Assembly (NCBI GenBank): GCA_902779675.1
Contig: CACZCK010000006.1
Span: forward strand, 44,117-108,116
Direction of reading: 5' to 3'
DNA from: an uncultured Coriobacteriaceae bacterium
GTDB taxonomy: Bacteria > Actinomycetota > Coriobacteriia > Coriobacteriales > Atopobiaceae
Length of the DNA: 64,000 bases
Shown here: piece after piece, positions 14,830 through 25,192 of the stretch
Numbering within the stretch: the stretch's first letter is position 1
Layout of the letters: each line of letters begins with the position of its first letter
Translations under genes and position numbers: made by a program
Notes under the pieces: model-generated
The model's database searches: none
Told to the model about the DNA's origin: nothing
What the model saw: the letters and a program-made list of their open reading frames with translations, nothing else

Positions 14830-16002
14830 TTATGCGAGCAACTCGCGCACGTCGAGGCGTGCGAGGTCGTGGGCGGTCTTCCAGCCGTTGCGCCCCGAGA
14901 ACGCCTGATGCGGCAGAGCTACGAGGCGCGCCTTGGAAGGCACCACCGGCGCATACAGAGCATCCGCCACCACGAGACGCGCCGCCACAAGCGTCTCCTC
15001 GACGCCTTCCTCGCCCTCGACACGCGTGTCGTGCGGCGCCAGCAGCTCGCTGGCCGCCTCGAGAGGACAGACCACGCGACCCTCCACGCCCAGTTCGCGT
15101 CCCATTGCGCAGGCGAGCGACCCCATGGCCACGGGCTCGCCCACCAGCTGGCAGGCCTCCCCCGCCGGTTGCGTGACGCCTCGACCGTCGCGACACGGCC
15201 ACCGGCACTCCCCCGTAGCCACGGCCTCCCGTAGCGCCTCTGCCAGCTCGTACGCCCATGTGCCCTCGGCAAGCCCGTCGTCGGGCAAGCCCACAGGCAT
15301 ACCCACCACATACGGCGTACCAAAGCGCTCGCGCAGCAGGCGGGCGACGCCCAAGCCCGTCGCCGACACTACCAGATTCACCTCGGCCTCCGCGGCATGC
15401 ACAAGCTCGTCGAGCGAGCTGCCCATGGCCCAGCAGGATGTCACCTCGAATCCTGCCCTGTGGGCAAAGTCGCGCAGCGAGGCATCGGAGCCCGCTATAC
15501 CCAGATCGAGCGGTGTCGCACCGAGGATGTTCAGCGTCGACTTGCGTCGCTCGCACGGCACCACGAAGCGCTCGGCCAGCGCCACGAAAGCATTGTCCGC
15601 ACCCGTCACGTAGTCGTGCATCGCGTTGGTGCGCACATAGAAGCAGGGTACGTCGCACTGGCGCTCCACCAGCTTGCAGATAGCCCGAAAGTCGGTCCCG
15701 CTGATGAAGGGGATGGGCGAGTTGCACAGCGCCACGAAGCGTGGCGACAGCTCGTGCGCCGCCTCCACCACGTCGTGCACCAGCTTGTCGTCGTTTCCCA
15801 AGATGGCGTCGCGCTCGGTGAGTCCCGTGATAAAGATGAGACTGTCGTGGTCGTACCAGCGCGTCTCGTCATGCGTGTTGTAGGTGGAGTTGCAACCCGA
15901 CGGATCGTGGATGACCACCATGCCACCCAGCTCGAACAGCGCCGAGCAGGCGCCGCTCACGTCACCGGTGTAGGTGGGCACGATGCGGTTGGTACGCCTC
16001 AT
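14830..16002 (-). CDS. Nitrogenase component-1-like protein, NifK-type (split set)
   Basis: 390 residues. ATG 16002 overlaps the stop of the NifD-like gene by ATGA, so the two are translationally coupled. The N-terminus carries SGACSALFELGGMVVIHDPSGC and then ALCNSPIPFISGTD: Cys19, Cys37 and Cys93 fall where component-1 subunits hold cluster ligands. It aligns along its length with the C-terminal half of the fused protein at 22020-24434 (for example DAILG.DDKLV and the GTPY block near residue 210). It is shorter than a true NifK (~500 residues). Likely forms an alpha-beta pair with the upstream gene product. It belongs to the PF00148 oxidoreductase family; substrate unknown. Not a canonical nitrogenase, since NifB and the usual assembly genes are absent from the window. 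Confidence 0.8.
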   Translation of the reverse strand: MRRTNRIVPTYTGDVSGACSALFELGGMVVIHDPSGCNSTYNTHDETRWYDHDSLIFITGLTERDAILGNDDKLVHDVVEAAHELSPRFVALCNSPIPFISGTDFRAICKLVERQCDVPCFYVRTNAMHDYVTGADNAFVALAERFVVPCERRKSTLNILGATPLDLGIAGSDASLRDFAHRAGFEVTSCWAMGSSLDELVHAAEAEVNLVVSATGLGVARLLRERFGTPYVVGMPVGLPDDGLAEGTWAYELAEALREAVATGECRWPCRDGRGVTQPAGEACQLVGEPVAMGSLACAMGRELGVEGRVVCPLEAASELLAPHDTRVEGEEGVEETLVAARLVVADALYAPVVPSKARLVALPHQAFSGRNGWKTAHDLARLDVRELLA

Positions 16003-17315
16003 ATGCAGCTCACGCATCCCAGTCCCTTGCGCGGCACCAGGTCGCGCGTATCCTTCTCCTGCTCCCAGGCCTCGGCCATGAGGCGCGCCAGGGAGCGCAC
16101 GCCCGCAAAGCCCCATAGGCCTCCGCCGTACACCATGTTGACGAAGTGGCCCGTACCACAGAACCAGGCAGCCTTGGGTCCGACCGCAAGGGTCTTCTCC
16201 GTCCTCGTGCGCGAGGCCACCCGCAGGTCGGGTAGGATGGTCGATGAGAGCTCCACATGCGGTGCGTGCGCGCGCAGCCAGTCCAGCTCCGCCTCTTCCT
16301 CGCCGTTTACGCCGTCGAGGTATATCTCGCGCACGTTGAGGTCATGCGCCAGCAGCAGGTGCGCCAACCCCAGCGGGCGCGGGTGTGCCACTGCGTCCAC
16401 CGCGATGGGAGCCTCCCCCACCACGGTCCTTAGCGCCTCAAGCGCCTCGTCACAGGCGGCACGCTCTGCGACAAAGTCGGGCAACGGCAGCCCCAGCTCC
16501 TCGCACAGCAGCATCTCCTGTGCCTCGATCTCGTCGTACGAGAAGGTCGCGGGCAGGTAGAGGTGGGGCCGTCCCAGCCGTTCTGCCGTCTTGCGCGCGC
16601 CGTACTCGCCGTTGGGAAAGACCGACACGATGGTGCCCGCGCGAGCCAGATCCTTGAACTGACCGTAGGTCTCACAGTCGTGGATGCTGGTCAGGCGCCT
16701 GCCGCCCGCCGCAAGCAGAGTTCGTAGGTCGCTGTCGGGGTCGGGGGCAAACTCGCTACCCAGAAGGGCCACCAGGGCATCGTCAGGCTCGCAGGGCAGC
16801 AGCGGATCGTACATCACCTTGCGCAGACGCTTATCGGGTATCAGACGCCTCTTGGAGATGGGGTCCATCAGGGCGCGCACGAAGTCTATCTGCGGAAACT
16901 CCTCTTCAAGCTTGCGGTACACGCGACCGAGTGGCACACCCAGAAAGAGGTGCGTGCATACGGGGAACACGATGACGCAGGGCGGCAGCTTTTCTGCCGC
17001 CTCGAGCTTGCGCAGCACGTCGCGGATGCCCTCAAGGGTCACCTGCTCGACCGTGCCCTTCGTTATGTCCTCCTCCTTGAGCACCACGCACGAGAAGCGG
17101 TCCTGCGCGCCCATCTCGGCAGCCGTGAGCACCACGCCGCGCATGCAGTTGAGTGCGCAGACGTAGATCTGGTGCGCCTCGGGCACCAGCATGCCAATAT
17201 GCACGATGTTCCACGTGCCGTGCACGGGTGCGTTGAACTCAAGGCCCGACGGGAACAGCGCCGCAGAGGTAGTCTCCCCCGCAGTCACCGCCGACGGTCC
17301 CAGTCTCTTGAGCAT
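15999..17315 (-). CDS. Nitrogenase component-1-like protein, NifD-type (split set)
   Basis: 438 residues, ATG 17315 behind GAGGGAGG. Cys53, Cys57 (YVCALNCMRG) and Cys120 (VFPVCTHLFLG) match the positions of Cys70/71 and Cys128/131 in the fused protein, fitting a subunit that helps hold an interfacial Fe-S cluster. A second Rossmann part follows (VSVFPNGEYGARKTAERLGRP) and then GPKAAWFCGTGHFVNMVYGGGLWGFAG. In the fused paralogue the same place reads GKDAAWYHPEAARLDWNSDVQPYGYAG. The tail ends with GCVSCI, an extra cysteine pair. Sixty-nine bases of GC-rich hairpin separate it from hypE. Interpreted as one half of a second component-1 complex, either the enzyme or a NifEN-like scaffold. Confidence 0.8.
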   Translation of the reverse strand: MLKRLGPSAVTAGETTSAALFPSGLEFNAPVHGTWNIVHIGMLVPEAHQIYVCALNCMRGVVLTAAEMGAQDRFSCVVLKEEDITKGTVEQVTLEGIRDVLRKLEAAEKLPPCVIVFPVCTHLFLGVPLGRVYRKLEEEFPQIDFVRALMDPISKRRLIPDKRLRKVMYDPLLPCEPDDALVALLGSEFAPDPDSDLRTLLAAGGRRLTSIHDCETYGQFKDLARAGTIVSVFPNGEYGARKTAERLGRPHLYLPATFSYDEIEAQEMLLCEELGLPLPDFVAERAACDEALEALRTVVGEAPIAVDAVAHPRPLGLAHLLLAHDLNVREIYLDGVNGEEEAELDWLRAHAPHVELSSTILPDLRVASRTRTEKTLAVGPKAAWFCGTGHFVNMVYGGGLWGFAGVRSLARLMAEAWEQEKDTRDLVPRKGLGCVSCI

Positions 17316-17350
17316 GCGCGCGCCTCCCTCGCGTTCGACGGGTGTGCGAG

Positions 17351-24434: not shown

Positions 24435-24436
24435 GG

Positions 24437-25192
24437 CTACACCTCACCCGTCCACAGACGCTCGGCAAGGTCGAGGAAGCACTGGCTCACCGCAAGCGTC
24501 TGGTCGCCCTCGATGACGGTCATGCCACGGTCCTCGCAGCGGGTGATGTCATCGGAGCGCGGAATCTGCGCCACGATGGGCAGGCCGTGCTCGTCGGCAA
24601 AGGCCTGGACCTTCTCGGTCTCGCCCACCACGTTGCGATGGTTGAGCACAATACCTGCCACGCGCGCGTATCCGCGGTCCTCGAAGTTGGCGACCGCCGT
24701 GTTGATGTTGTTAGCCGCATAGAGAGCCATCTTCTCTCCCGAGGTGACGATAAGCACCTTCTCGGCATAGCCCTCACGGATGGGAGCGGCAAATCCACCA
24801 CATACCACGTCACCAAGCACGTCATAGAGCACCACGTCGGGCTTCCAGGTCTCAAACAGACGCAGGTCCTCGAGCAGGTTAAAGGTGGCAGTGATGCCGC
24901 GACCCGCGCACCCGAGGCCCGGGGTAGGTCCGCCCGTCTCGATGCAGAGCACCCCGCCAAAGCCCTCGCGCGAGATCTGCTCGAAGGTCTCGGGGTCGTC
25001 ATCGGTCTCGCGCAGGTAGTTCATGACCGGCTGCAGCGGCTCACCACCCAACAGGTTGATGGTCGAGTCGGCCTTGGGATCGCATCCTATCTGGATGACG
25101 CGCCTGCCCTGCACTGCAAATGCCGCGGCCAAGTTGCTGGTGATGGTCGACTTGCCGATGCCGCCCTTGCCGTAGATGGCGATCTTGAGCAT
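24437..25192 (-). CDS. NifH-like ATP-dependent reductase
   Basis: 251 residues from ATG 25192 (AAGGGGG upstream); an in-frame extension to 25303 would read through the leader hairpin and is rejected. It has the P-loop YGKGGIGKST, the switch KADSTINLLGG, and both Fe-S cysteines of the NifH/BchL family, in PGLGCAGRGI and DVLGDVVCGGFA. These ligate one [4Fe-4S] cluster across a homodimer. The family hydrolyses ATP to push electrons at low potential into a component-1 partner. It is shorter than NifH (~290) at the C-terminus, like BchL/CfbC-type reductases. First gene of an eight-gene leftward operon, with an attenuator hairpin in the leader. Confidence 0.9.
   Translation of the reverse strand: MLKIAIYGKGGIGKSTITSNLAAAFAVQGRRVIQIGCDPKADSTINLLGGEPLQPVMNYLRETDDDPETFEQISREGFGGVLCIETGGPTPGLGCAGRGITATFNLLEDLRLFETWKPDVVLYDVLGDVVCGGFAAPIREGYAEKVLIVTSGEKMALYAANNINTAVANFEDRGYARVAGIVLNHRNVVGETEKVQAFADEHGLPIVAQIPRSDDITRCEDRGMTVIEGDQTLAVSQCFLDLAERLWTGEV

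Follow-up and report, generated by a model that had tools for sequence, protein, structure and literature searches.

HypABCDEF mature the [NiFe] hydrogenases: HypF and HypE derive cyanide from carbamoyl phosphate and HypCD carries an Fe(CN)2CO unit. The unrelated [FeFe] hydrogenases are matured by HydE, HydF and HydG, of which HydG produces Fe(CO)2(CN) from tyrosine, HydE joins two HydG-made units and HydF delivers the product. The DNA considered here is a stretch of 64,000 nucleotides from contig CACZCK010000006.1 of an uncultured Coriobacteriaceae bacterium (hereafter the window, meaning the whole stretch, within which all coordinates are numbered). It holds an operon of eight minus-strand genes, all present and open and tightly packed between positions 14830 and 25192, in which genes for HypF, HypC, HypD and HypE stand between two sets of nitrogenase-like genes. 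Gene counts across genomes, in which the operon is present where HydE remains and HydG is missing, indicate that it probably constitutes a branch of [FeFe]-hydrogenase maturation that replaces HydG. This replacement rests on gene counts, while the division of work between the two sets is what we infer. The component features are as follows:

24437..25192, minus strand: H1, NifH-like ATP-dependent reductase of 251 amino acids (Pfam PF00142 Fer4_NifH, 292 bits)
22020..24434, minus strand: D1K1, fused NifDK-like component 1 of 804 amino acids (Pfam PF00148 Oxidored_nitro, 163 bits)
19657..22023, minus strand: HypF carbamoyltransferase (NCBIfam TIGR00143, 708 bits, cut-off 466)
19432..19644, minus strand: HypC scaffold/chaperone with Cys2, beginning MCVG (NCBIfam TIGR00074, 67 bits, cut-off 48)
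18386..19435, minus strand: HypD, Fe(CN)2CO scaffold (NCBIfam TIGR00075, 372 bits, cut-off 193)
17385..18389, minus strand: HypE with C-terminal PRIC cysteine, ending LLPRIC (NCBIfam TIGR02124, 410 bits, cut-off 252)
15999..17315, minus strand: D2, NifD-like chain of set 2, 438 amino acids (Oxidored_nitro via alignment; component-1 fold predicted)
14830..16002, minus strand: K2, NifK-like chain of set 2, 390 amino acids (Pfam PF00148, 105 bits; 4-base overlap with D2; alternative start at 16017 also possible)
25226..25253, minus strand: leader hairpin of terminator-like form, 33 bases ahead of the H1 start, a possible attenuator

The passages concerned of a paper by Di Leonardo and co-workers, 2022 (PMC9431212), report that hydG was not found, by the criteria used there, in Clostridium ljungdahlii, C. 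carboxidivorans, C. coskatii, C. ragsdalei and AWRP, five acetogens that carry [FeFe]-hydrogenase genes, HydE and HydF. According to the same passages, HydE and HydF are listed and a group 1a [NiFe] hydrogenase is reported in all eight acetogens covered, HypCDEF occurs without HypAB in five of the eight, and the authors, who could not readily explain the missing hydG, propose motif-variant HydG candidates; nif-like genes are not mentioned there. A paper on the mlp cluster (PMC10418091) deals, in its relevant part, with nitrogenase-like MarHDK in another context. An earlier account of this DNA made from the letters alone (the preliminary description) knew of no described pathway with this gene set; our literature search, whose coverage leaves out most subscription journals, likewise found no paper joining hyp, nif-like and hyd genes. 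The protein families are known ones, and their pathway is not described in the literature found.

Distribution of the operon, HydE and HydG

A sample of 101 genomes from the window's family was searched for the operon and for hydrogenase maturation genes. The D1K1 query matched 25 of these genomes, and HypD was present in the same 25 and in no other; in genome G054 the match lay in the set-2 chains only, because the contig ends inside hypF. HydE was found over its cut-off in 36 and HydG in ten of the 101. The 36 HydE genomes comprise 25 with the operon and without HydG, ten with HydG and without the operon, and one, G086 (68% complete), whose only trace of HydG is a fragment at the end of a contig. 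HydE thus occurs in 25/25 operon genomes and HydG over cut-off in 0/25 (Fisher p 4e-8 for operon versus HydG, kinship ignored). Two genomes of lower completeness, G004 and G077, hold HydG fragments with neither HydE over cut-off nor the operon. On another contig of the window's genome (2.9 Mb, 99.67% complete), TM1266, HydE and HydF lie side by side, all over their NCBIfam cut-offs (HydF 535 bits against 325.6), with 66 bases between HydE and HydF; the NCBIfam-supported order in G070, of the same family, is HydE-HydG-HydF, with HydG in the place concerned.

A similar distribution was found in a second family, that of Anaerobutyricum hallii (299 genomes), where a component-1 match had to reach 520 bits to count as D1K1, the next best match being 305 bits. 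HydG is present in 131, HydE in 160 and D1K1 in 19 of these genomes; the 160 with HydE divide into 128 with HydG, 19 with D1K1, 13 with neither and none with both, and three HydG genomes are without HydE over cut-off. All 19 operon genomes possess HydE and none possesses HydG (Fisher p 2e-16, kinship again ignored).

Two genera, g7 and g27, each have one member with HydG, the other members drawn having the operon. In a HydE tree of 64 rows, furthermore, the operon and HydG states interleave in common clades, with four (starred branches) to five (all branches) independent operon/HydG pairs. The HydG rows of this tree are nine of the ten from the window's family, 12 of the 128 from the second family (those ranking highest by HydE score) and L146, which is the locus of G086 and is labelled HydG from its fragment; the operon rows include 17 of the 19 second-family genomes, and six rows have neither.

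The large subunit of [NiFe] hydrogenases (PF00374) was found in none of the 101 family genomes, the control being positive in five of 14 known genomes, and HypFCDE therefore serve no [NiFe] hydrogenase detectable by PF00374 in the window's family. HypB scores 23.7 bits in the window's genome, below its cut-off of 121.2. Over cut-off, HypB is present in 57 of the 101 genomes, both operon-bearing and operon-free and none with a [NiFe] large subunit, where it presumably acts as a nickel chaperone for something else; its distribution being independent of the operon, it was rejected as part of the system.

Gene order across genomes and the nitrogenase-like proteins

A scan of one genome per species returned 342 loci encoding a relative, of which the best 80 were fetched; with eight more, 88 loci were counted (L045 and L102 being from one genome). 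Hosts among the best 80 of 342 include Atopobiaceae/Coriobacteriaceae, Lachnospiraceae and Oscillospiraceae, among others, with Clostridium ljungdahlii, C. carboxidivorans, C. ragsdalei, C. drakei, C. luticellarii, C. muellerianum and C. thailandense as well as Anaerobutyricum hallii, Faecalicatena contorta and Acetitomaculum ruminis as named hosts. The usual order is H1-D1-K1-hypF-hypC-hypD-hypE-(H2)-D2-K2, in which D1 and K1 form either one fused gene or two, and D2 often has a second NifH-like gene (H2) ahead of it. By queries with the reference genes, D1 was found in 86 of the 88 loci, hypF in 79, hypC, hypD and hypE in 73 each, D2 in 70, K2 in 65 and H2 in 36, together with the [FeFe] partners TM1266 (42), HydF (40) and HydE (31), and HydG was found in none; several loci are short contigs and misses were not traced individually. 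In L072, L084, L085 and L112 the genes form a single run on one strand, H1-D1-K1-hypFCDE-TM1266-H2-D2-K2-HydF-HydE; L107 and L111 show the run from H1 to HydE without H2, as do L116, L118 and L124 with hypF at the far end. The hypE gene adjoins K2 in L097, L098 and L100, and in L097 and L100 it lies between D2 and K2, a position which suggests that set 2 works near HypE. A CRISPR (clustered regularly interspaced short palindromic repeats) array was observed about 3 kb upstream of the operon in Clostridium ljungdahlii (L065:4526-6101).

The order is not due to chance, being found again in dozens of loci from other genera and from a second phylum. The proposal of the preliminary description that the genes form one functional unit is supported. 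Its account of the window itself was also borne out by the open reading frames and family matches, namely eight leftward genes including both component-1 sets, a reductase and HypFCDE, with the fused component-1 gene overlapping hypF by four bases. From H1 to K2, with corrected starts, the junctions have gaps (+) or overlaps (-) of +2, -4, +12, -4, -4, +69 and -4, giving 4-base overlaps at four of seven. The adjacency of hypE and the second NifD, which had also been described, holds, with a spacing of 69 bases. HypF, HypD and HypE score above the cut-offs of NCBIfam equivalog models, and HypC above that of a subfamily model. The region contains three terminator-like sites against 3.9 expected, so that the leader hairpin is not significant by count; no Rfam match to a riboswitch in the leader, or to anything else in the window, was obtained, and a promoter scan of the region found none. 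Among relatives with a titled record, the nearest are metagenome-assembled genomes labelled Coriobacteriaceae or Atopobiaceae, several with names referring to ruminant guts, Olsenella species being more distant.

Neither H1 nor any component-1 chain passes the cut-off of a listed NCBIfam family. H1 scores 299 bits with NCBIfam nifH, below the cut-off of 394, and its C96 and C132 (numbering of a 252-residue translation) are identical in at least 95% of 84 sequences. The best NCBIfam score is 93 for D1K1, against the nifE cut-off of 505, and 60 for K2, against a cut-off of 505, while D2 has no NCBIfam match. Among the NCBIfam models of NifDK, NifEN, dark-operative protochlorophyllide reductase (DPOR), chlorophyllide oxidoreductase (COR) and CfbD, none has its cut-off reached by the component-1 chains, which, as judged by these models, do not fall inside a family of known function, a possibility raised in the preliminary description. 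D2 itself has no Pfam match, and 35 of the 42 sequences in the D2 alignment match Oxidored_nitro.

Structure prediction is consistent with a component-1 fold for both sets. The AlphaFold2 model of D1K1 (pLDDT, the predicted local distance difference test score, 84.5) has the fused NifEN 9i0g as its top Foldseek match (E 3.8e-27), and the predicted structure of D2 likewise adopts the fold of nitrogenase component 1. Both sets keep three of the six P-cluster cysteines, as seen in the printed alignment rows. D1K1 retains the NifD C88-, NifD C154- and NifK C95-type cysteines as C71, C131 and C499, and in K2, C44 (397-residue numbering) occupies the NifK C95 position and is identical in at least 95% of 61 sequences. 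A three-cysteine Fe-S site at the interface, like an electron-relay cluster, is thereby predicted for both sets. C275 and H442 of NifD, which we take to be the ligands of the iron-molybdenum cofactor (FeMo-co), are both changed in both sets in the same alignment. With these ligands missing and no cut-off reached, nitrogen fixation was ruled out, NifB not having been among the searches. A CxxC tail was observed at the C-terminus of D2 (15999-16020), its C434 and C437 being kept in 74% and 57% of 69 sequences.

In a component-1 tree with few references, from which DPOR, COR and CfbD sequences were absent and the K chain of L148 was left out as too short, a pair from a Chlorohelix plasmid, presumably Mar-like, groups with NifDKEN outside both sets, on long branches. 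A relative was further observed on plasmid pTS1 of Treponema saccharophilum (L167:8235-14531), where a NifH-like gene and two component-1 genes are followed by an iron ABC (ATP-binding cassette) transporter, the annotated neighbours including no hyp and no hyd gene.

The proposed route and its alternatives

If the operon replaces HydG, an iron unit with cyanide and carbon monoxide ligands would come from HypF, HypE, HypC and HypD, which would supply cyanide and the first carbonyl on iron. The two ATP-driven nitrogenase-like sets would convert this unit and hand it on to HydE and HydF, by which the H-cluster is predicted to be completed. The Fe(CN)2(CO) of the Hyp proteins would have the wrong CN:CO ratio for HydE, so that a reductive step should be needed; the NifH-like ATPases and the putative three-cysteine clusters of D1K1 and D2K2 may drive it, either by exchanging one cyanide for carbon monoxide or by making carbon monoxide from a one-carbon precursor. 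The complete form of this HydG-free pathway, in which cyanide comes from carbamoyl phosphate through HypF and HypE, the first organometallic iron is built by HypCD and the nitrogenase-like proteins reductively rewrite Fe(CN)2(CO) into Fe(CN)(CO)2 for HydE, has in our estimate little better than even chances.

Several results weigh against the replacement of HydG. The [FeFe]-hydrogenase domain PF02906 is present in 96 of the 101 family genomes, among which are 61 of the 65 that have no HydE over cut-off; hydrogenase genes thus do not track the maturases. The single PF02906 gene of operon-bearing G056 is of a type also found in maturase-free genomes. Thirteen of the 160 second-family HydE genomes have neither HydG nor D1K1, and seven of these 13 have a match like set 2. 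In this family 78 of the 299 genomes matched the component-1 query, 19 as D1K1 and 20 as set-2-like (matches of about 120-310 bits, by our own reading), the rest being weaker. The seven stretches fetched around such matches (L147-L153, 11-20 kb) contain hyp genes in none, TM1266 in five, HydF in four and HydE in two (L147 and L148). From these stretches it follows that Hyp may not be needed everywhere and, together with the T. saccharophilum relative, that the role of the nitrogenase-like part may be a wider one; the ligands may also come from sources other than Hyp.

The genomes are, in addition, related, the independent pairs are few and the Fisher values overstate independence. The direction of the pairs in the HydE tree is fixed by the labels, so that they count exchanges and provide no test, and four pairs are too few for their count to reach significance; with the six "neither" rows included there are eight pairs, about four of them without HydG change (p 0.125). 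HydG over cut-off occurs, moreover, in two of 50 genomes chosen for holding a D1K1 locus (three of which are also among the 299), the other 48 being without it, a set in which HydE was not searched. Lastly, the passages concerned of PMC9431212 assign a HydG candidate to C. autoethanogenum, the source of a purified [FeFe] hydrogenase, and that enzyme therefore gives no clean support.

Some further observations concern the same genes. The two genomes with both the operon and HydG over cut-off are G103 (C. thailandense) and G108 (C. drakei). The HydG cut-off is 312 bits; matches of 168-217 bits in the chosen set are read as the related ThiH and those of 44-82 bits mostly as HydE, the single match in C. 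ljungdahlii reaching 68 bits (HydE level) and that in C. carboxidivorans 198 bits. Operon-bearing Anaerobutyricum hallii likewise has no HydG over cut-off. G003 (99% complete; L160) carries all three H-cluster motifs in a genome where neither HydE nor HydG passes its cut-off and the operon is missing, which also argues against the reading, and PF02906, given its presence in 96 of 101 genomes, was discarded as a marker of a working [FeFe] hydrogenase. Set-2-like H-D-K genes lie beside HydE at L147:6316-10620 and L148:9012-13206, in genomes from which HydG over cut-off is missing. Set-2-like proteins also occur in four HydG genomes and in nine of the 299 without HydE, HydG and D1K1, and were for this reason rejected as a marker.

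Three other explanations were considered. The interlocking of hyp and nif-like genes, the lack of a [NiFe] large subunit in the 101 family genomes and the component-1 fold of both sets would suit a nitrogenase-like enzyme that itself bears a Hyp-made Fe-CN/CO centre and carries out a reduction of its own, HydE and HydF serving the new cofactor. We regard this as improbable, since the exclusion with HydG and the shared HydE clades point to H-cluster work, and since FeMo-co ligands are missing and the predicted three-cysteine interface site resembles an electron-relay cluster. For the same reasons the bolder proposal of the preliminary description, that CN/CO-ligated iron forms the metal centre of the nitrogenase-like enzyme, finds no support: that the Hyp proteins make an Fe-CN/CO unit is supported, that the unit is the enzyme's own metal centre is not.

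It is similarly unlikely that the operon is an addition to the H-cluster pathway, for repair or for an altered H-cluster, or that only set 2 matters, with an undetected enzyme replacing HydG. The 13 HydE genomes without HydG and D1K1, seven of them with set-2-like matches and no hyp genes in the stretches, favour it and make another HydG substitute possible; however, an addition would have to arise exactly where HydG was lost, in several lineages, and Hyp chemistry already yields cyanide and carbon monoxide on iron, as HydG does. Finally, it is hardly credible that the Hyp proteins work for a [NiFe] hydrogenase whose genes lie elsewhere and are linked to the nif-like genes through co-expression only: the group 1a [NiFe] hydrogenase of eight acetogenic Clostridium species (PMC9431212, passages concerned) means that Hyp could serve such an enzyme there too, but with the large subunit in 0/101 genomes, 25 of them operon-bearing, and HypB at 23.7 bits against 121 in the window's genome, this is refuted here at the sensitivity of PF00374. 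The milder reading of the preliminary description, which was of this kind, thus fails in this family, where operon genomes without [NiFe] hydrogenase do exist; a hydrogenase appears to be involved, but of the other, unrelated [FeFe] kind.

Should the replacement of HydG by the operon be true, it would explain how industrial acetogens without a recognisable HydG, such as C. ljungdahlii, come to have several [FeFe]-hydrogenase genes, HydE, HydF and HypCDEF without HypAB (as given in the relevant passages of PMC9431212). The H-cluster would have a second biological source of iron ligated by CO and CN, and the nitrogenase-like fold would gain a new function. In the complete form of the pathway this function would be the building of iron-carbonyl cofactors, and nature would have combined the CN/CO machinery of two unrelated hydrogenase classes. 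Many Lachnospiraceae and Atopobiaceae of rumen and gut would then depend on the operon for their H2 metabolism, and laboratory hosts could be given a new set of genes for making active [FeFe] hydrogenase.

Comparison with known systems

The operon differs from DPOR (BchN-BchB, BchL) in that the DPOR cut-off is not reached and in its hyp and hyd context. The MarHDK and group IV nitrogenase-like enzymes share the fold and the HDK layout with it, but the presumed Mar-like Chlorohelix pair falls outside both sets, on long branches of a tree with few references. NifEN, which also occurs fused, is closest to D1K1 by Foldseek and NCBIfam rank; the score of 93 bits is nevertheless far from the nifE cut-off of 505, and the NifD C62-type cysteine, which NifE retains, is missing. 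With the HypABCDEF system of [NiFe] maturation the operon has in common HypF, HypC, HypD and HypE over their cut-offs and the PRIC tail of HypE, the differences being the [NiFe] large subunit in 0/101 genomes and HypB under cut-off in the window's genome. Its likeness to HydE/HydF/HydG maturation lies in the retained HydE and HydF, the regulator TM1266 within the run and HydE sequences in common clades, whereas HydG is missing from nearly all operon genomes, where HypFCDE and two nitrogenase-like sets would stand in for it.

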